Source: Apostichopus japonicus (Eukaryota > Echinodermata > Holothuroidea > Aspidochirotida > Stichopodidae). Taken from it: DNA of 64,000 nucleotides. This document shows positions 18,870-58,292 of the stretch, one piece after another. The number at the start of each line of letters is the position of its first letter. Within the stretch, counting starts at the first letter, position 1. The DNA lies in NCBI RefSeq assembly GCF_037975245.1, contig NC_092562.1, forward strand, positions 28,285,554 to 28,349,553, in the 5' to 3' direction. The notes under the pieces were generated by a model. The model was not told the origin of the DNA and made no database searches. It saw nothing but the letters and a program-made list of their open reading frames with translations. The position numbers and the translations under genes are program-made.

Positions 18870-20960
18870 TTTTTTTTTAATTTATTTTTTTAAACTTTAT
18901 TCGTAACCAGGGATCCTGTCAATGGTAAACCAGTGTTCTCCCCAGGATCCCTGCACATATAACACATACAAAATGAAACAAACAGAACACATTAATAAAT
19001 AAAGAATATAAATATAAAAAATAAATAAATATAAAAATCAAAATCAAATATCGATTTCAAAGATTCCAGAAAGCCAGGCCATTTCTAATTGCACATTTTA
19101 ATTTATTTTTAAAGGTATCAGTGTTATTGCACATACGAATATGCCGAGGCAGTGCATTCCATTCATTAACCCCATGGCAAGTTTGACGACGTCTCCCCCA
19201 AATAGTGTTGGAATGTGGAAGGCAGAAACCACCAGAGGTAGAAGCTCTTGTGGCAGATTCACTCGAGGAGACATGGACATACCTGTCACAGAGATAGTCA
19301 GGAGCAGCTGCTATGTGGATTATATGCATAAAAACCTGACGGTGATAATTCCATCTTTGCTTTATAGGGATCCAGGATAGAGCTGAAAGAACATCAGCTG
19401 TAGGTGCAGTCCCAGGAAGATCTCGAATAATCCGACCATCTCTTCCTTGCAGAGATACCAGACATTTTTTATACTTGGCACAGGTGTTATACCAGGTACA
19501 ACTAGCATAATCAAAGTGGGGGCTTATCAAACTATTGTACACCATAATCCTGTATTTGTGTGGAAGCTACTTCTTAACCCTCCCCAGCATCCCAAGACGG
19601 CAGGATATTTTCTTTCAAATCATAGATATATGGTCTTTGAAAGTTAAGGTACTGTCCAAAAGCACCCCAAGGTACCTAAAAACATGAACCTGTTCTATAT
19701 CATGTGAGTCATGATGGAGAATGAGAGGGTCAGCTCTCTTCATCATGGTTGGTGTGCCAAAAAGCATACTTTTGGTCTTTTTTACATTCAAGGTCAATGT
19801 GGTTTTGACTAGCCACTTGCCAATCTGATTAAGATCAGTACAGAACCTGCTGTATTTCACATATTTTCTCAGAGCTATACATAACAGCTGTGTCATCTGC
19901 ATATAACATTGCTTGGCTTTCACTTGTGGCAGATGGAAGATCATTTATGTAGATAGAGAATAGTAATGGCCCAATGATAGATCCCTGTGGAACGCCAAAT
20001 ACAATTCCCATCATATCTGAATACTGGTTCTCAATCTGAACAATCTGGTATCTGCCCGCAAGATAAGAGCCGAACCAATCCAATGCAGAGTCAACAACTC
20101 CATATGACCCAAGTGTCATGATCAACTGTATCAATAGCTTTTTTAAAGTCAAGGAACAAGATGCCAGTGTAGTTCTTTCTTCCACAGGCACCGTCCATGT
20201 TTGACAGAATATCATCAACCACATAGCTGAGAGCCGTAGTAGTGGAGTAACCAGGTCTGAAGCCTGATTGCCATTTGTTAAGGATCTTGTTACTAGTAAG
20301 ATACTGATACAGTTGATCAAGAACCACTCTTTCCAAGATTTTTGACACAGCTGGCAGAACTGAAATAGGTCTATAATTGTCGTCCTGACTGCGTGCCCCA
20401 TCTTTGAAAACTGGTGAGACCTTGGCAGTCTTCCAGTCAAAAGGGAAAACCCCATGAGAGAGTGAGAAGTTGATGATATAAGTAAGAGAAGGAGCAATGT
20501 GGGAGGCAGATAGCCTCAACAAACGAGCACTTATGTTGTCAAGGCCAGTGGCTTTCCCGGCAGACAGGCCCTTTAGTTGCTTCTCAATTGATTTAATGCT
20601 AACTGTCTGGAATCGGAAATTACATAAAGTATCATTTGTGGAAGGAGTGTGGGGTCTAGAATCGAATTTACTAGCTAACTCACTTCCAATGTTAGCGAAA
20701 AATTGTTGAAGACATTAGCAATTTCACACTTGTCATTAACAGCAATACCATTATCAATTATGTTAGCAATGTTACGGTGTTTGCTACTATGCATTGCTTC
20801 TTTAAGGGTAGACCATAATTTAGAGGAGTCATTTTTAGTGTCCTCAATTTTGGTTTTGAAGTACTCACATTTTAGTTGTGAAGCCAGTTTATTGAGTTTG
20901 TTTCTACATTTTTTTTATCTGGCCCAAGTGTCCAGTGAACCATTTCCATTTCCATTTCCT
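18870..20960 (-). mobile_element. Decayed CR1/jockey-type non-LTR retrotransposon (reverse transcriptase part)
   Basis: Minus-strand fragments in several frames spell a reverse transcriptase in order: an upstream region (NNFFANIGSELASKF), then VSPVFKDG, NYRPISVLP, QSGFRPGYSTTTAL, FLDFKKAIDTVDHD, GVPQGSIIGPLLF, the catalytic YADDT, and a C-terminal segment ending near 19057. Frameshifts break it between about 20497 and 19545. No endonuclease domain was found, so the copy is 5'-truncated and inactive. The A-rich and T-rich stretch near 18870-19040 marks its 3' end. Confidence 0.88.
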
Positions 20961-21519: not shown

Positions 21520-40869
<19,350 letters not shown>

Positions 40870-45517: not shown

Positions 45518-48500
45518 TCAACTACTCGTTTGATACTCTAACAGATAAAGAGGTAGTGCTTGTGAAGGGTGAAAGATGACATATTCTTGTTGCCTCGTCC
45601 GAACCGAGGATGAGGTCTCTTCATTGACCGGTAGTCTGCCTTGAGTCTAAACAGAAAATAAAAGCATCAGTTAGGCCAGGTTTAAGGTAGAATCTATCAC
45701 AATGATCAATATCAAACACTGAGTTGTATTGTCATTAGGTAGGGGGGGGGGGGGAGGGGATGGGTCCATAGTTTGTGATACAATACTGGGTATGATTTAT
45801 ATGCCATGCAAAAGCAAAGATGTATAGCATTTTTTGGAAACAGGAGCCCTAGAAATCTAAAAAAAAGTTCAGACCATTAAAACACAAAATTAACCCAATA
45901 AATTAATTTGCTGCAACATCATCATACAATTTAGTCTAATGTTAGGTCTCTTTCACACCCACTGTACAAGATTGAATTTGTCATTTATTGTAACTCTAAG
46001 TAGAACTTGGATTAATGGGACAAATGCAGACCAGAGACTGCCAAGATATGAAAAACAAGATCATCTAGTTTCACATACTATAGTATAGGTTTGTTATTTT
46101 CATAGTGGACTGTCAAAAATAAAATTCATTGTGTTTCATCATGATGTACTACAGCAGTACAACAGCATTGTAGCATTCTTGTGCTGTGAAAATTACATTT
46201 ATAAAAAACATAAAAATCTGCTCAGTCCATGAGCAGTCGATGGATATCTGCTTAGGATATTTCAGGATAAGGAAAACGGGGTTGGGATAATCCTGGTTTC
46301 ACTGTTCTACTGATAAATGACTGAATTGTACCACCCTCTAGATTTTAAGCCTACTGGAGGGTAAAGTAATCTGTGTTTTTAACAAACTCATGGGAAATGG
46401 ACTAGATATGTGAATCATAAAAAGCAACTCAAAATCTTAGCTAACAATTCTGAATGGTATCATCATGGTAATTTAGCCAGACAGGATAGGTAATAGCCAG
46501 TGTTTGTCTTACAATCATTGTAATTAGACTAGAAATGTATATATATCAAACACTGAAAATACCCTCTGTATACTACCTCTCCCATACATTTTAAATCTCT
46601 ACTCACAATGACTGAATCATATCCATGATATAGATTTAGTTGTAATATATTAATTGCTATCATACTAGTAATGTAGATCCAACCCACCCTCCTTATGCTA
46701 CCTCTTATGGCAAGCCACATGTGCAATACTTCGATAAACTGAGTTTATCGCGAAAAACACGGTTATCCATTTGATAAACTAAGTTTATAACAGAGTTTAA
46801 CAGCGATTAACTCGGTTTATCAAATTATTGCACATATGGCTTGCCATAACCTCTCCCATACAGTTTAAATCTCTACTCACAATGACTGAATCGTATCCTC
46901 TCGATGCCGCTGCTCTCATCCTATCAGCTTGTCTCATCGTCTCTGGGATTCCAATCGCAACCTCCGCCAGAATTATCTTTCCAAGCTGTTTGGACGGTAA
47001 AAGATGAGAGCAATCTGCCGTTTTGCTGGTTTTCGGTATTACATTAATCAATAATTTGACGTGGCCATAAATTGTTCATGAAAATATCATCAGATGTCGG
47101 GATATACAAATAACGCTTGCTACAAGTTTTTCTGGCTATGCATTATGCAAATGCACCAAAATTTATTTGTTGAGTTAAAATAGCATTCGTTAATGCCATC
47201 GCATGTACATGGAAACACACTCGCATGAACGTTCATTTGATCTTGTAAACGGAAGGAGAATGAAACACGACAACTTACAGCTGAGAAATGAGCAGCAGTA
47301 CTGGGATGTTGACTGAAGTAAAGACCCATTCCATAGTCACCGCAAGAAAAATCTGTTTTGGATCAAAGATTGATAAAACATATTCTTATATAATTCAACA
47401 CAGTTCCATGAACCAGTTTGGGAGAACAATTTGCATCCTTTGGTTTCACGCTGCAAAATTTAAAACGTTTTTTTACAGTAGGATGTAGGATAATATTATT
47501 ATATTAATCTATATGAAATAAATATGAGCTAATACATGGATTCTCACTTGGCAGGCTGAGTACAAAAATAACTCAAGTATGAGTAATCATTTCTCTGGTA
47601 TGATCTTAATTCTTACTTGGCAGTATTATAAATAACACACACTTACCCAAGGATGAGAATCCATTCTCAAGTATGTTATGAATTCTCTCCGGATGAAGGA
47701 GAGAACCGCAGAAATACATTTTGGTCTTCATGGACGGATCGTTCAGTTTGTCACACCATGAAGAATAAAGGGACAAGGTATGTGGAGTTGGCTGGGCCTG
47801 CAGAAATTATAAAAATAAAAAATAAAAAAAAATAAAAAAAACCAACAGATTCATAAGCTTTGACTTGAATTTTCATATAAGAAATAGATTTACAGGAAAG
47901 ACTGAAGGAAGAAACAGTCCATTTGTCCTTCTTTGCAATATTATAATAAAAAACAAAACAAAAATCATCCATTAATTAACACCACAAACAAGTCTTCTGT
48001 TCTTTTCTTTCAACATAAAATTTTCATCAAGTGTCAACCCAGGCAATAAATGATCCACATTTTACAGGAAAGAAAGAACAAGAACTATATATTTGGTCCA
48101 TGCAAGAATCCTAGGAATTATTAGTTGCCAGTGCTTGTTATGAAGGACAAATACAGATTGTATGTACTAGATACCCAGACAAATTAAAGGACAGAAGGAT
48201 ATACACAGTCTCAATATCGTCTTTTCCACTCTTTGAAACCAGCCCTGGGCCTTCTAAACTTTTCTAAACATAAAATTCCAACTAAGATTGATTTGAGTAA
48301 TTGAATATCCTCCTAGATAGAAAGATAAGTACAGGTATATTAAAATGTTTACGCTTCATTTATTGCCAATCTGTGATATTTGCACAGTATGGATATGATT
48401 AGTTTAATATGTATTCTAGAAAAGACACTCTTGCTGAGCTTCAAAACATAATTAAAAATTCAAAACATAATTCAGAGCCGCCCCACCTTCTTCGTTCTTG

Positions 48501-51500
48501 TGACAGAGAAGTTATCTCCGAGCAAAGAATCCTCTCTCATCGCAAAAGCAAACTCTTCTGCCACTGCCCAATCGATGGTTTCTTCGTCTCCTTCAATGTC
48601 ACTCTCTGAAAAATGGAAAAATAACCCAGAAAGACCTAAAAATAATAAAAAACAACTTTCAATGTATAATCATGATATGGTCATTTTAATTCATTTAACT
48701 AAAAGATAAAAAAGGGACAAATATTTTTTTTTTTTTTAATTAATAAAAAACAACTCTCAATGTAAAATCATGAAGTGGTCATTTTAATTCATTTATTTGT
48801 TTTACTAAAAGATAGCAAAAGGGACAAATAATATTTTTTTCAAAACCAACCCAAACCTCAACAAGCTAATGGTTGTATACAAAACGTTTGTAAATTTGTG
48901 TAGCGAAAGTAAAGATAGTCATTTACACAGACAAGAAATAGTAACTTGAAATAACAATATCACTCTTCCAATCCTTTATGCTCAGATTGATTTCCATTTT
49001 CAAACATACGTAGGTATTTTCGCCCCTTATTTGTAAAGATGATTGACTGACCTGTCCCCATATCTCTGACCCTCCTCTCTAGGTCCTGAATGATAGAGCT
49101 ACTGTCAAGGTTCGCCCCTTCTTCACCTCCTTCACAATCGTCCCATTCTATTAAAGGAAAAAAAGAAGGAAAAAAAATATAAACAATGAAAAAATTAAAG
49201 ATGAAGGGTTATACCAATAAGTCATGATACCTCAAAAGTTTTGGACGGATAATGAAACCTCCAAAAAGATGAGTGGTGAGATAAACAAAGAGATCAAATT
49301 CAGGATGAAATGTCAGATGTAAAAATGTTTGAAATTTGACACTCTACCTGAAGTAAGACACACACGTAAGAAGAAATATATTCATAGTTGACCTTAACCA
49401 AAGGAAGCCTGAGCCTTCTTTCATAAAAGTACGCTCTGATTACTTTCATGACATTGACAATAAAGTTTAATAAATGTGTATGACAATGGAACAGACAGAC
49501 ATAACCACAGATGGGTAGAGAGACATTTTTGAGGGATCGGCGAATTTAACAAATGGATACCAATTTAAGAAAAAAGACTGGATTTTAATAAATCAAATGC
49601 TAACTTCATTTAAACCAGAGTTCCACAGACTGGGAGTAACAAAGATAGAGAAAGAACATATACAGAAATATTAATTTGTTACCTTTTTGTTACAACCAAT
49701 GTGCACAATCATATTTATGTATTTGATGATAAATATAATCCATAAGTTGATCTAACAAAGCTATTTCCCCCTTTTGTATCATTCATTAAGCTTACAGGGT
49801 GGTGTCCAGAATTATTTTCATTGCTTTGTACATGTTTACTTTCACTGTACAAGAAACTGATAAAAAAGGCCAGTATTTGCACATTGGTAAAATAGCCAAG
49901 CACCATTAATTTTAACTTTTCAGTCAAGTCCATTTTCAAATATGTTGAAATTGCTACTGTGGTAGAAAACACAAGCTAAAATGTGCAGATTCCTATCACA
50001 GAATCTAAAATCCTTGTATAGTAAATCACCATGGTAACCAGTATCAGGTGTTTCTTCCAGGCCATCCAAGTCGATGCCAGCTTTGAGGGCAAAAACTCTT
50101 TGTAGTAAATTCTTCCTTTCTGCGAAGAGGGAAAGAATAAATAGTCTACATTAATAAAGGACGTGGATTAATTTCTTTCCAAAGAGGAAACAAACATGAT
50201 AAACCAACTGTCTTAATTTACTTTGTATTAAAGGATACACGATCCGCCATTTTGCTTAAACTTTATATCGATGAGTGGTTCCCATCAATGTCAGTTATGT
50301 TGAATATGTCACCTCCAACAAGCCTCTGATTGTTCCACTATCACAAGAACTGTCTTACCTGATCCACTTTTGTCAAAGAATAGCATAGAGTACTGAAAAA
50401 CCAGACAGCTTAGTGGATCAAAATATTAAAAAAAAAGTTCAGTATGATACTCCAAAACTAACCTATAAATAAGCCAAAATGAGCAAAACCTGTTTTACAC
50501 ACTGCTCTTCTACTCAGGGATGAGCCTGGGGTAAAAAAAAATATCACAGAACTTTGCAAAAATTGCGGTATAGGCTCCAGTTTGCATATGCTACAGTGTG
50601 TTAGGATAATAGTTTTTGTCCCGAGGTAGAACAGAAATCACGGATATTCCGCGAATTCGCGGAAAAGCTCATGCCTGTCTACTGGTGAAAGTAATAAATC
50701 GTTGCTTTTTTTTGGATGGAAACACACTTACCGAGATCCTGTTTTTCGGCATGAAGTACATCAACCTTGTTGGACAGAGAGGTAATTATATCTTGTTGGG
50801 AACTGACCTAAGGAAGGATAAAAACAATGGATCAGCATTATTTTTCAGCATTAAAAACAAAAGAGATATTGTTGGTAATTAGTAAAGGGAGATGAAGCAG
50901 GCAACTATTGTACCTCCTTCTCAAGTGAGAAAACGTGGAATTTTCTTGATTCCTCTCCACAGTTTTCCTGACATAGTTAACGTTTGATGAAAGGATCAGC
51001 TTATGATTAAACTATCCTGTTCCCCTCAAAACCAAATTGATAATAATTCTAATTGCTGCTCTGAATCCATCCTTAACCTTTAGAAGCTCAATCAGACTCT
51101 AATTATCATCTTTATATTTGGATGAGTATAATTAAAGTTGAGACCTACCAAGGCCCGCAGGGCGATGATTTCGTGACGGAATCTCATAAGGCAACTAAAC
51201 TGAGCTTGGTAGGCTTCTCTGCTCTTCTGCGTCCACTTCTGAAGTTCCAGTTCCATCGCTTTGAGGTCCAAAGATTCATCGGAGGAATGAAACATTGTTT
51301 GGCCTGAAAAGTACAAACCAGAAAGTAAGTCCAGTCAATGGTATCATTTTTTGGGGGTCGTTGTTCCCATTCACCCGTAAGGATTCATGAGATCATATTA
51401 ATCACAACATATCCTATTTTCCTTAAGTTTAAGTGGCTGGTTGTACCCCTTTACCAGTTGGAGTGTTAGCTCAATGGTTAACGACGGAGCCTTTCAATCA

Positions 51501-54500
51501 TAAGGTACCAAGATTAATGTATGTCGTCCAGTTACAGAGTTGTTGACAATTGACAATTCATAATCATGGACATTAAATATGAATCTAAGAGACTGACTTC
51601 GGTCAGCTTGCGGCTTTGATAAGCCAATGATGGCTTCTCCGCGAGTTCCTGCTTGCAGTAGGATCTAACATACATACATACCAGTTAACAACATTGTTTA
51701 TTATGTAGCTGCAAGATGCTGAATATCAAGTGGTTCTTTACCAGTAAATGGTGGAATGTAACACATTAATGTGCAATTGGTCCAGTTGTCGGCCAGCTCG
51801 GAATACTTGCTGTTCAGCACGATGTCGTCAGAGAAGCCGTACCCGGAGAAGAAATCAACAGCGGAGTGGTCTGCGTAGACGACCAGGTTATCAAAACGGC
51901 CAACCATGGATGGATCCTTTAATTTCTACAAGATAAAGAAAAAGAAAACAAAATAAAAACAAAAGAACAAGAATAGAAGAAGAAAATGAATACAAAGAAC
52001 AAAACAAATCAGAAACAGATAAAACGGAAGAAAGAATCAATTTATTTAATCTTGTAAAATATTTGGTTTTCTTTTCATCTCAGGATGTCGTAGCAGATCT
52101 ACTTTGCATTCCCATTTACTAATAAATCTTATTTAAAACAATAGGTAAAAAAAAAACTGTTGCTTCGTTTAAACCACTTGGGAAGAATATACCTTTTGAA
52201 AAACTAAAAGAAGAAATTTCATAACAGGCCTGAAGGCTACTTTAAAGGCTAACTTCATGTTGATTGTTTAAAACTGAGAATCAAAGATGATTAGACTAAA
52301 AAAAACATTTGAGTCAGCAACATAAAACATACTGGAGAGAGAATAAACGTGATTTGGTACCTGAATGAGGTATTTCCCGACACCTGATTTTCGGTATCTC
52401 CTTCTGACTGCTAGTAGATCAATCTGAATGGTATTTTCTCCAGGACACCTAGAGAGCAGGGAAAAACAGTAGGAGGATCATATGATAAACAGTGAGAACT
52501 CCCATCCCATTCCTCAGGGGAATAACAAAATTAATCTAAATGAGCTGTTCTGCAGGATATCTAGAAGCAACAATGAAATTAGGTTAACAATGTACAAATA
52601 ATATGAAGTCCATTGGCTATTCCCCCTCTCCCTACCCCAGAGCTTTGATACAAGTAGATTCACAGATCAATGTAAGTGAGATGCTTCTTTCCCACGCACA
52701 TACAGTATTAAAGTGATGCTACTAATCCACATACAGATATCTATATTCCACTTACTCACTCCTTTCCATTCTATAGGAAACCCATCATTAACATTTCATC
52801 TTCATCTCTCACACACTAACCTCTCATTTTCATCTCTCACACACAAACCTCTCATCTTCATCTCTCACACACTAACCTCTCATTTTCATCTCTCACACAC
52901 TAACCTCTCATCCTCATCTCTCACACACTAACCTCTCATTTTCATCTCTCACACACTAACCTCTCATCTTCATCTCTCACACACTAACCTCTCATCTTCA
53001 TCTCTCACACACTAACCTCTCATTTTCATCTCTCACACACTAACCTCTCATCTTCATCTCTCACACACTAACCTCTCATCTTCATCTCTCACACACTAAC
53101 CTCTCATTTTCATCTCTCACACACTAACCTCTCATCCTCATCTCTCACACACTAACCTCTCATTTTCATCTCTCACACACTAACCTCTCATCTTCATCTC
53201 TCACACACTAACCTCTCATTTTCATCTCTCACACACTAACCTCTCATTTTCATCTCTCACACACTAACCTCTCATCTTCATCTCTCACACACTAACCTCT
53301 CATTTTCATCTCTCACACACTAACCTCTCATCTTCATCTCTCACACACTAACCTCTCATTTTCATCTCTCACACACTAACCTCTCATTTTCATCTCTCAC
53401 ACACTAACCTCTCATCTTCATCTCTCACACACTAACCTCTCATTTTCATCTCTCACACACTAACCTCTCATCTTCATCTCTCACACACTAACCTCTCATC
53501 TTCATCTCTCACACACTAACCTCTCATCTTCATCTCTCACACACTAACCTCTCATCCTACATTCCTGTTATTCATGTTCAGCGGACAGATTTACATTTGC
53601 TTTTATTACAAAAACAACTAACAAATAGTACAAACTCTTGAGAATACAGCAAAACATACATTTCAATTAATACACTATATAGTCAGAAGCCTGAAACAAT
53701 CTAGCCAGAAGTGTCTGGTCTTGCAACCAACTAGAGGGTTTGTAAGAAGAAATTGTGACATGAACCAGTGTGCAACAAGTCTGTGATGGGATGGAAAATG
53801 TTTCCAACCATTTTGCCTTTGAGACCTAACAGTTTGTGAATGCAGTACTTACACATGTGACTTTTCCCAGGTAGCACAGCCAATCAGACGTGATTCTATA
53901 CCAATGTAAGATGATACATCTGATTCTGTTTCCAAAGCCTCCTTCCTCTTTTCTCTCCTCTCTCTCACCAGCTGGAGAAACAACTCGGCTCCTTGAGAGA
54001 AATCATGCTCATCCTCTTCATCACTGATCGAAGAGAACAAATAAGGGTCTTTACCATATAACCTCTTGCTTTCTATCAGCAGCACCCACCCGCCCCCACC
54101 CTCACCCACCTGCCTCCTACAGCAACCAAACCTCATGTTAGCCATCACTATTGAGGAACTTTAACCAATTGTGAAAATAAATGGTTGAATTTCGGCTTCT
54201 GAATCGTTTGATGCAATGTGGAGGATGACAATCTTCAAGTAAGTGAATTATTAATTAATTAATAAGATGAACTATTAATTACTTAATAAGATACATTATT
54301 TATAGAACTGCAGAAGACTTTTGATAGACTAATCTTTAGGGCCAAGTTAAAAGATAAACCAGATGAGACTAATTCTATTTTGCACACTTTTTTGGGGTTG
54401 TACAATGCTGGTTAAGATCCATCACTGAACATGAAGAAACTCTGTTAATTTCAGGCACACATCGATACTTGCTTTTGAAAGCAAGGTTCTCTCTAGCGAG

Positions 54501-57500
54501 AGGAGACCATATGTTGCGAAAATCAACCAGCCCACAATTAAGGCAGCTTTCTGAGCCGATTTTGATACCATGTATCTCTTGATATTGTTTAATACTAAAA
54601 AAAATCATATTAATAGATCTCACTAGCTTGACTAGCCAATTCTTATTTCAAATAGAGAGGAGCAATAGTTTAAATTTGTGAAATTTCAATGTAGTTCATT
54701 TATTTTTTACAAACTTGTACATGTTTGATATGCCACCAAGAAAAGTGTCCTGACAACAACATGTTGAGGGTTAAATCAAGCTCTTTAACTACATATCACT
54801 ATTCACTTATTCATTAATCTTTCTTTGGTGGACAAAATCTAGGAGATTTTAGTTTGATTTTAAAACTAAAACCTTATTAAGGGTACTTACCAGTACCTAC
54901 AGTAGGTTTGGGGGAAAAATGCTGTTTCAATGCCAACTGGTTAAAAAAAAAAAAAGGAAATGTTTTTTTACCTACTGGAGGAAGAATCACTCTCTGTGTC
55001 ACTGAAAACATCTGCAAATGTTCTCTTCTTGTCATCATTGTGTTTGTTAGGGCCCTCTTTAAGGATAGTATCATTGGCATCTTCCTCTTCAACTGAATCT
55101 TTCCTCTTGGCATCCAATGAATTCAGACCATCATCACAATTACAAGTATTTTCAAGGTCCTTGGTCTTTGGTCTGTTCTGTTCACACCTTCCGCACACAC
55201 CCTTGTCTTCTGTTGGACTTTCACAATCTGTTTTATCATTCACTGGGGTGGTCTGTTTGTTCTTTTGTGTTCCTATGGAAACATATGCTTTCAGACTATT
55301 GGCATTTCCGAGCACTTTAATGTTACAGTTTATATCCTGGGAATTAAAGTCCCCCGATGAGAATCTATTAACTGATGAGGTGCCTCCTGGAATGCCATTT
55401 AGTTGGTTGTACTCCATAGAATATAAGTCGTCGTAGGGGGATTTTAGGACTCCGTAATCCGAGGTCAATTCTGGGGATAGGCTGCCTCCAGTGAGAGTAT
55501 TATCATCACTGCTCTCAGGGACCTTGTAGTCATTGAGCACATCTATGATATCGAAGTTAAAACATCGTCATAATTACTGTACATTGTAAATTTAGTCAGG
55601 TGTCTGAGGAAAGACTTAAGAAAGCACACAAGGCATGACACTTAAAGTAAGACCAGACCAGACGTCCCTGATATCCCGGGAGCAGTCCTCAGATGTCATG
55701 TACCATCACCGGATTAAAAGTGTCCCCAGAATCCGTTTACTGTCTCAGGAATAACTTGGTATTTGTAAAAAGACCCTGAATATTTGAAATTAAATATGTT
55801 TGGCTGAACTATTTGTTGGGTCAGCTGGAACCTACAGCAAGTTGTGATTGTTCATGTTGACAAACTACAAACGAAAAATTTATTCATGGCTCAACGATTA
55901 AGGCAACCTCAATAGGCCGTAATTCACAAGGGAAGCATCATGGTGCACTTTGTGATGAATAATAAGATTCCAATTATCTTCAAGTTTCATTTACATGAGA
56001 TTTTCATATCGGACAAAATAATTGTCTCTTCTAAACTTTGGCATTTGACCAACATCCTACAGTACAATGAAGAAAGAACTCCCAAAATACAAAGAGACTG
56101 TCAAAATGCCAGCGGTATCCAGTCAAAACGTCCCTTTACCAAAACGTCCCCGCTTTTTTAAGACCAAAACGTCCCCGCTTTTTACCAAAACGTCCCCGCA
56201 GTCAAAACGTCCCTGTGAGTCAAAACATCCCCGCTTTTATAATCAGTTGGAATGCAAGTGTGGACTTTTTTCCTTCAAATCAAAGAGTAAGGATAAGTAT
56301 AGTTTAGGTCGAAAACACAGTTTTTAGGAGTGGGAAGTGCCGGTTATGAGGGCGGAAACATTTTGAGTACAATTTTTTGAGGTAAGATCATATAAATAGA
56401 AAAGGGAATGCAAGAGGGCTGTAGGGTAATAGGATTTTTTTAAACACGAGTTGGTTTCTGAATGAATATATACCATATTGAGGGAAGGGAATAAATATTT
56501 TTTGTTTTCCTTAATTCGTTAATTCACTGAAAAACATATAGCGTATACCTTTTTCATACCAATTATAATTAAACGGTATAGTCCTTCATGATTTATTTAG
56601 CGCCTGTAATCAAACTTGCATGCCGGTAACTTAGCCAAATTATTAATATTAATACATATTCACAACTGAGAATGAATGTGATAGACGGGGACGTTTTGAC
56701 TTACGGGGACGTTTTGACCAACAGGGACGTTTGACCAACCGGGACGTTTGATCAACGGGGACGTTTTGACCAAAAGCGGGGACGTTTTGGTACAGGGACC
56801 TTTTGGTAAAGGGACTTTTTGACTGGTGAGCATGCCAGCTACAGTACCCCACCCTTAAAACTTACATCGTTATAGCAACCAACTTTTTCTGATCATGCCA
56901 ATGGTCGTCATACTGTACATGTGATCCAAAAAATGGGGAAGGGGTATATGGGGAGGGGGTGCCCCTCGACTCAAAGAAGATGGAAATTTTAGACCCCCTA
57001 CATGCAAAATAGTGACACGCACATGTTATAAATTGCCTTAATCATGTATAATTTAGGATAACTTCAAAGAGTACATGCAAATCAGCCAGATCCAGATATA
57101 TGATGAGTACTGTATGTGTGGGTTGGCTAGATTGCAATGACAAATGCAGGTTTAACCTCCAAGTTGTGGGTCACTGAGGGGCTCTGCATTGTAGGCACTA
57201 ACCCTTTATTTCAACATGGGGGGCGGCGGGAGGGGGGAGGAATACAAAATTGACAACATAATGTCCATGGGATTCCTGGAAAGAAGGTGGTTACCTTATC
57301 ATAAATACGGTCAGGAGTAATCAAATCATTTAATGATTACAATTGTTAGAGATTCCAATTTGTGTCAGAAGGAAAAGAGAGAAAGAAACTTTTAATATGT
57401 TAGTAACCAATGAATTATGTACACATTGTTTTGGAATGCATGCTTAAAGTAACTCACCTTCAACATTTCTAACCAGAAGGACAGTTGTTGCCCACTTATC

Positions 57501-58292
57501 ACAAACAGTTGAGTACAATACTTCTGGAGTGATATCTGGTAGACAGTTATCATATAATGCTACTGTAGCATGAAGGAGATCTCTGTTGGAAACCTGAAGA
57601 AAAGGATGAAATAATACAGTAACGTAAGTAACATTTGGCTGTGTGGTGTGACTACCATTTACAGTCCACAAGAAAAGCTTACCAATCTTAAAATTCATGA
57701 AAAAGTAAAGTACTGGCAACACCTTAGACTCAAGTTAGAGGGTGACCACATGAACTGTGATTCTTTCCAATCAATGTCTGTTCGATATGTACAGTAAGAT
57801 GCACAACTTACAATTGAGTTTGCTGGTGGACTTAATATTTTTGATTAATTGAGGAGTAGCTATAGTATGAATATGATACTTGATACGAGGCTAAGAATAG
57901 AGTCAGGACATAGGCTACGCCAGGCCTACGTGTTTGGCCATGTGTAAAAATTGCCAATTCGAAGTCTTAAGTGGGCCATATGTCAACCCAAAATGTTATT
58001 ACTAAGTCATAATACTAGTACTGCTGATACTTTGGTTGCATACCCCTGGGATAGCGTTGATCGAATTGTACTTTGGGCTCAGCAGCAACCGTCTGAATTC
58101 AATGATGATAGGAGTGGAACAAAATCTGCGATCAGCCAAGTCACCGAACTCCCGAGACTTTCCTTTATGTTGTGTTTCACTTCCTACATTCTTTCTTATA
58201 AGACTTTTAGGTGGACTTTTTCGGTTTCGTTGGAAACAGACGGGAGAAAGTTTTGATGCAATTGGACTGTTTACATCCATGGAGGCAGCCAT
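45518..58292 (-). CDS. GNAT acetyltransferase - coiled linker - PARP fusion protein
   Basis: Exons: 58292-58275 (tentative), 57593-57458, 55542-54972, 54023-53853, 52448-52361, 51925-51742, 51303-51149, 50807-50732, 50119-50039, 49147-49052, 48605-48487, 47797-47647, 47352-47279, 46985-46881, 45646-45518. Total 2154 nt, 717 aa, every phase consistent. Residues 52-241 are acidic, Ser-rich and probably disordered. GNAT acetyl-CoA-binding motif A (RRRYRKSGVGKYL, about 314-326) and motif B (VVYADHSAVDFFSGYGF) follow; about 390-525 is helical, then an acidic segment. The C-terminus is a PARP fold (NILENGF, YGMGLYFS, ILAEVAIG, GYDSVI, QEYVIFHPSQALPLYL). Inference: a nuclear or cytosolic enzyme joining acetyl-CoA and NAD+ chemistry. 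The first triad residue is Cys, not His. Uncertain: exon 1 (another donor at 58188 would add residues) and the 3' end of exon 9 (50039 or 50030). Function and vertebrate counterpart not recognised. Confidence 0.85.
46573..46624 (-). repeat. Duplicate of an exon end and splice donor of the PARP block
   Basis: About 52 bp nearly identical (3-4 differences) to 46849-46900. That segment contains the last ~20 nt of the exon 46985-46881, its GTGAGT donor and about 30 nt of intron. The copy keeps the donor but lacks the rest of the exon, so it cannot replace it. Confidence 0.8.
46705..46849. mobile_element. Short palindromic miniature element
   Basis: 145 bp with near-perfect 24-bp inverted ends (TTATGGCAAGCCACATG / CATATGGCTTGCCATAA) and internal gataaac/gtttatc inverted motifs. 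It is flanked by acctct on both sides. It lies 31 bp downstream of the donor of the PARP exon 46985-46881. Confidence 0.8.
48487..51303 (-). other. Helical and acidic linker block of the fusion gene (five exons)
   Basis: These exons encode residues about 390-565 between the GNAT and PARP domains. The first two give a heptad-like helix (KAMELELQKWTQKSREAY ... NKVDVLHAEKQDL), a likely coiled coil for oligomerisation. The next are acidic (EWDDCEGGEEGANLD, ESDIEGDEETIDWAVAEEFA). The second acidic stretch loosely resembles a ubiquitin-interacting motif but lacks the usual Ser. The last donor is AAG/GTGGGG, weak but required by phase. Confidence 0.7.
51742..54023 (-). other. GNAT acetyltransferase domain block (three exons)
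   Basis: Exon 54023-53853 supplies a helix (GAELFLQLVRERREKRKEAL) and a beta strand (SRLIGCATWEKSHV). Exon 52448-52361 supplies strand IQIDLLAV and the pyrophosphate-binding loop RRYRKSGVGKYL (R-x-x-G-x-G type). Exon 51925-51742 supplies the GNAT motif B strand and helix (VVYADHSAVDFFSGYGF) followed by a C-terminal strand (CTLMCYIPPF). The order and spacing are typical of GNAT N-acetyltransferases. The acyl acceptor cannot be predicted. Confidence 0.85.
52797..53553. repeat. 28-bp minisatellite, 27 units, within the GNAT coding region's intron
   Basis: Tandem array of a 28-bp unit (core ctctcacacactaacctctcat). Units differ at two bases next to the catctc core, giving three variants (ttt, ctt, cct). 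The order shows blocks, including a five-unit pattern repeated twice. It lies in the intron between exons 53853 and 52448. Confidence 0.96.
54024..54971 (-). other. Intron of the fusion gene with a possible unused exon
   Basis: A minus-strand open stretch from 54601 to about 54375 follows a T-rich acceptor in a compatible phase and would encode a Cys-containing segment (SESCLNCGLVDF). Direct splicing of the flanking exons is in phase without it (DSSSS joined to SDEEDE), and no good donor was found, so it is left out of the model. Confidence 0.4.
56115..56830. mobile_element. Foldback element with caaaacgtcccc arms
   Basis: The left arm (about 56115-56235) and right arm (about 56683-56830) are inverted repeats built from repeated caaaacgtcccc / ggggacgttttg motifs, with ends CCAGTCAAAA and TTTTTGACTGG. 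The spacer of about 450 bp has no gene. The word atgccagc occurs near both outer edges but not directly adjacent to them. It lies in the intron between the second and third exons of the fusion gene; the rest of that intron (55543-57457) shows nothing else. Confidence 0.8.

Follow-up and report, generated by a model that had tools for sequence, protein, structure and literature searches.

In the sea cucumber Apostichopus japonicus, a single gene of 12.8 kb encodes a GNAT acetyltransferase domain and a PARP-type domain in one and the same protein. The gene lies on the minus strand of contig NC_092562.1, within the stretch of 64,000 nucleotides (positions 28,285,554 to 28,349,553, here termed the window) that was analyzed and whose numbering is used throughout. 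As stated in the original prediction, the gene comprises 15 exons (58292 to 45518) whose reading frames connect in phase. They are separated by GT-AG introns and yield a protein of 797 residues that consists of a GCN5-like GNAT domain split by an acidic insert, a long helix and a PARP-fold domain, in this order. Both the spliced model and tblastn bear this out: proteins from six relatives, aligned with the window (matches with E < 1 were kept), matched the exons in the same order and on the same strand. The Holothuria protein covers exons 3–15 with 40–84% identity, and proteins from a starfish, a hemichordate, an oyster and the axolotl match subsets of exons on the GNAT and PARP sides, some of them weakly (E up to 0.53), with one stray match of the axolotl protein at 25548–25252 (E 0.33). 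An additional exon of 54 nt (50967–50914) has no counterpart in 12 relatives compared by eye, is removable in frame and was rejected, leaving 15 of 16 exons; the acceptor of exon 14 was placed at 46985 by hand. The annotated A. japonicus protein (P0001) shares 95% identity across 92% of the query region. As a reference for the acetyltransferase half it was rejected, since this annotated prediction skips part of the GNAT fold.

The domain assignments were confirmed by Pfam profiles, run on an 815-residue model still holding the 54-nt exon. PARP (PF00644) reached 44.1 bits against a cut-off of 26.7, Acetyltransf_1 (PF00583) 26.7 against 20.7 and Acetyltransf_10 (PF13673) 26.4 against 23.6, while Acetyltransf_7 (PF13508) stayed below its cut-off of 27 with 21.3 bits. 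Neither the C-terminal bromodomain of GCN5/KAT2 nor DUF3715 (PF12509) of TASOR is among the Pfam matches up to E 1, a profile search that can miss distant relatives in the latter case, and none of the matches of the model protein is an ankyrin, SAM, WWE, macro or zinc-finger domain. The PARP segment starts at residue 655, about 190 residues after the end of the GNAT segment at 467, close to the 200 originally estimated.

With regard to the acetyltransferase half, motifs A and B are present as predicted, but the fold begins earlier than claimed, with its first half in exons 1 and 2. Exon 1 (58044–58292) supplies the start methionine and the first strand and helix (TPIIIEFRRLL) and exon 2 (57458–57593) the α1-α2-β2 segment (LLHATVALYDNCLPDITPEVLY...TTVLLVR), both assigned by tblastn and the fold of relatives. 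Exon 3 (54972–55542; tblastn) encodes the insert with a conserved FADVFSDTES motif at its end; the matching region mostly has a predicted local distance difference test score below 50 in structure models of two relatives, a starfish (P0003) and a crinoid (P0033). Exon 4 (53853–54023; tblastn and a relative's structure model) holds the acidic end of the insert, a helix and β3 (GIESRLIGCATWEKSH). Motif A, with the acetyl-coenzyme A (acetyl-CoA) loop RKSGVG and with Gln384 at the position of the GCN5 catalytic Glu, is located in exon 5 (52361–52448; Pfam and alignment), and motif B (VVYADHSAVDFF) together with the last strand in exon 6 (51742–51925; Pfam, tblastn and alignment).

Both folds are predicted in relatives, the second as an ADP-ribosyltransferase (ART) fold. 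The helix between the halves comprises 89 residues (360–448) in the starfish model and would probably form a coiled coil. It corresponds to exons 7 (51149–51303; first part) and 8 (50732–50807), both assigned by tblastn and the starfish model, and ends in exon 9 (50030–50119), from which a linker extends into exon 10 (49052–49147). The ART region starts in exon 11 (48487–48605), and exon 14 (46881–46985) contains the central strands of the PARP domain; exons 9, 10, 11 and 14 were assigned by tblastn. The three PARP motifs, identified by Pfam and alignment, are found in exon 12 (47647–47797; YFCGS, in which Cys675 replaces the catalytic His), exon 13 (47279–47352; YGMGLYFS...STAAHFS, with Tyr707 kept, Ala715 for Ser and Phe718 for Tyr) and exon 15 (45518–45646; QEYVIF with Glu776 kept, followed by the C-terminus and stop). 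The originally proposed complete PARP-type C-terminus thus applies to the fold and not to the catalytic triad.

Three protein searches retrieved 90 relatives, including several isoforms or near-identical copies, and these were aligned with the window protein to give 91 rows. They stem from echinoderms and hemichordates (Holothuria, starfish, a brittle star, sea urchins, a crinoid and hemichordates), lophotrochozoans (many bivalves and gastropods, a chiton, a brachiopod, nemerteans and an annelid), cnidarians (corals and Nematostella) and chordates (amphioxus, sharks, a chimaera, a coelacanth, a caecilian, salamanders and frogs, as well as paddlefish and sturgeon with the GNAT part only). No amniote-named record occurs among the 90 relatives, in searches that require shared five-residue words and two of which, out of three, scored the best-sharing candidates only. 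At least 80% of the GNAT columns and at least 75% of the PARP columns are covered in 78 of the 91 rows, the remaining 13 falling below these thresholds. Proteins with both domains are thus present in cnidarians, lophotrochozoans, echinoderms, hemichordates, amphioxus, sharks, coelacanth and amphibians, and the domain order seen in the sea cucumber recurs in many phyla. Pfam profiles, applied to 52 of the 90 relatives, detected PARP in 48 (E 0.01) and Acetyltransf_10 in 49.

Eight records are reading frames of 424–711 codons that fill most of contigs of 1706–2876 bases (longest contig listed); we take these contigs to be spliced transcripts, because the gene spans 12.8 kb in 15 exons here. Transcripts ending between the two domains would, according to the original prediction, indicate two genes, and on this point the evidence for the most part favors a single gene. 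Seven of the eight contigs carry both domains in one reading frame, while one (P0085; 1844 bases, source 'jgi') stops after the long helix without a PARP domain and counts against a single gene. Among the records read, the GNAT domain is likewise kept and PARP absent in two sea urchins, a crinoid, paddlefish and sturgeon, and records stopping after GNAT and the long helix are what two adjacent, falsely joined genes would lead one to expect. Such a false join is nevertheless highly improbable, given the contigs with both domains, the both-domain relatives in many phyla and the matching of the intervening exons in Holothuria, and it was rejected on the basis of the tblastn exon order and the 78 both-domain rows. 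The records with GNAT and long helix only (P0028, P0029, P0030, P0044, P0045 and P0085, from the two sea urchins, paddlefish, sturgeon and the contig) may be isoforms, errors or cases of real PARP loss; the sturgeon record additionally contains an aminotransferase and appears to be a false join.

Phylogenetic trees were calculated separately for the GNAT and PARP parts with a quick method and 32 hand-picked rows each. Each tree requires four changes among five animal groups, which is the least possible, so that a single fusion before the cnidarian–bilaterian split fits the sequences. Median end branches amount to 0.12 for GNAT vs. 0.36 for PARP, i.e., the GNAT part evolves more slowly.

For residue counts in the GNAT domain, three of the 91 rows were left out and the remaining 88 thinned to 42 at less than 85% identity. 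The acetyl-CoA loop has the motif [R/Q]-x-x-G-x-[G/A], to which RKSGVG of the window protein conforms; across the 42 rows, its first residue is R in 40 and Q in two, the first Gly is present in 33, and the last position is Gly in 41 and Ala in one. At the position of the catalytic Glu in strand 4 (Glu122 of Tetrahymena GCN5), H occurs in 23, Q in 15, K in two and E in two rows. The family differs from GCN5/PCAF (KAT2A/KAT2B) by His, Gln or Lys in place of Glu, by the insert splitting the fold and by the fusion with PARP. Within the disordered insert, a motif F-x-x-[VA]-[FY]-[SN]-[DE] plus an acidic run was observed in 78 of the 91 rows; it may resemble acidic-aromatic histone-binding segments.

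For the PARP domain, 14 of the 91 rows were left out (13 with fewer than 110 of 143 columns, plus P0001) and the remaining 77 were thinned to 46 at less than 80% identity. Instead of the His-Tyr-Glu (H-Y-E) triad of a canonical PARP enzyme, the window protein has C-Y-E, and so do 41 of the 46 rows, the others being C-H-E (two), A-Y-E, G-Y-E and C-Y-gap (one each); His occupies the first position in none. The nicotinamide-site Ser is replaced in all 46 rows, by Ala in almost all family members, and the second tyrosine position, Phe718 in the window protein, is mostly aromatic. Compared with the tankyrase/PARP catalytic domain (PF00644), the sea cucumber protein thus has Cys for His, Ala for Ser and Phe for the second Tyr, while the Gly-rich core is kept.

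Replacement of the triad His in a PARP-type fold is shared with PARP13 (ZC3HAV1), which is itself among the matches of the profile, and with TASOR, both listed as inactive in Table 1 on human ART domains (PMC7955679; Y-Y-V and L-Y-Q, respectively). These two proteins have lost the triad Glu as well, whereas the sea-cucumber family keeps it. According to the same table, most mono-ADP-ribosyltransferase PARPs have retained His and lost Glu, the reverse of the C-Y-E family, while PARP3 and PARP4 keep both and TASOR2 (V-T-E, activity listed as not determined) likewise keeps Glu without His (PMC7955679).

These substitutions, i.e., His to Cys and Ser to Ala nearly family-wide in PARP and the GCN5 Glu to Gln, His or Lys in GNAT, leave the original proposal of a dual modifier unestablished. 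In such a protein, two active enzymes, one transferring acetyl groups and the other mono-ADP-ribosylating by means of a Cys-Tyr-Glu site, would act on a shared substrate. GNATs other than GCN5 are known to work without the Glu in question, and the acetyl-CoA loop is largely kept. In the PARP domain, the triad Tyr and Glu as well as the Gly-rich core are retained, and the second tyrosine position mostly holds an aromatic residue. Nonetheless we consider two active enzymes unlikely, as neither His nor the nicotinamide-site Ser is found in any of the 46 non-redundant members, and human PARPs tabulated as active have His, with the exception of PARP9, while PARP13 and TASOR are entered as inactive (PMC7955679).

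On the other hand, substituted catalytic positions in both domains could mean that the two folds are binding platforms of a scaffold with neither catalysis nor cofactor, for which PARP13 and TASOR, with PARP folds tabulated as inactive, provide precedents (PMC7955679). Some of the best conserved positions, however, lie in the loop for acetyl-CoA and in the pocket of the PARP domain, and a pure surface scaffold would need neither; such a double pseudoenzyme therefore appears rather doubtful, if less so than two active enzymes. The explanation that we tentatively favor, at a little below even chance, is a GCN5-like core that binds acetyl-CoA and may be active, fused to a PARP-fold module with a ligand-binding or regulatory role, in an old animal family. 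The GNAT half would bind acetyl-CoA as the core activity, be it for transfer or sensing, the coiled coil would form a dimer or join a partner, and the acidic motif may serve to dock a basic partner, for example histones. The PARP fold with its C-Y-E pocket, acting as a regulatory or targeting module, could bind nicotinamide adenine dinucleotide (NAD+), an ADP-ribose-type ligand or a protein and would not carry out the usual poly(ADP-ribose) synthesis. The assignment of GNAT as core and PARP as regulatory or targeting module follows from the slower evolution of the former and its retention in PARP-less records, obtained in searches not aimed at relatives with PARP alone.

Several observations weigh against a GNAT core with a regulatory PARP fold of early origin. 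The triad Glu is present in 45 of the 46 rows (with a gap in Nematostella) and Tyr in 44, which is beyond the need of a dead enzyme, so that the PARP domain may still be catalytic. Three sacoglossan sea slugs (P0023, P0024 and P0069) have Ala in place of the triad Cys, which indicates that Cys is not strictly required, and the ten pocket positions were chosen after the alignment had been viewed. The GNAT domain itself may be inactive, judging from the absence of the catalytic Glu in 40 of the 42 rows and a first loop Gly in only 33, with mostly gastropods differing. Concerning age and simple descent, the trees are weak in their deep branches, neither lophotrochozoans nor echinoderms plus hemichordates form one branch in the PARP tree, and deuterostomes are not united in either tree.

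Elsewhere in the gene and the window, repeats and probable mobile element remains were observed. The intron between exons 4 and 5 contains a 28-bp minisatellite (52789–53556; 27.4 copies, 96% matches), and that between exons 2 and 3 contains short tandem arrays of 16–21 bp based on GGGACGTTTTGG and its reverse complement (56135–56234 and 56685–56821), possibly, as a guess, the ends of a mobile element. On the minus strand at 19835–20714, two overlapping frames contain reverse transcriptase remnants (RVT_1), which probably belong to an element of the long interspersed nuclear element type.

As the original prediction held, the protein appears undescribed: open-access full-text literature searches yielded no paper on it, and the main text of a 2010 survey of PARP evolution contains no words starting with "GNAT" or "acetyltransf" (PMC2964712). 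Database records of the relatives are mostly uncharacterised and carry Pfam domains, so that the architecture has already been visible to automatic annotation. Both folds are known; to our knowledge, a conserved animal protein that combines them and has a C-Y-E pocket has not been described in the literature searched. Acetyl-CoA and NAD+ are among the main metabolic co-substrates used in chromatin modification, and a single animal protein that has the two folds and is conserved across phyla offers a direct test case for their coupling. Speculatively, and in our view improbably, the family may represent a two-cofactor chromatin regulator predating the cnidarian–bilaterian split, in which acetyl sensing or transfer and a non-canonical NAD+ reaction or the reading of NAD+ or ADP-ribose would couple acetyl-CoA and NAD+ status. 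Since mono-ADP-ribosyltransferase PARPs usually exhibit the reverse change, the C-Y-E pocket can reveal the role of the triad Glu without His, and the records from corals, Nematostella, oysters, amphioxus and axolotl make it possible to study the family in tractable animals.
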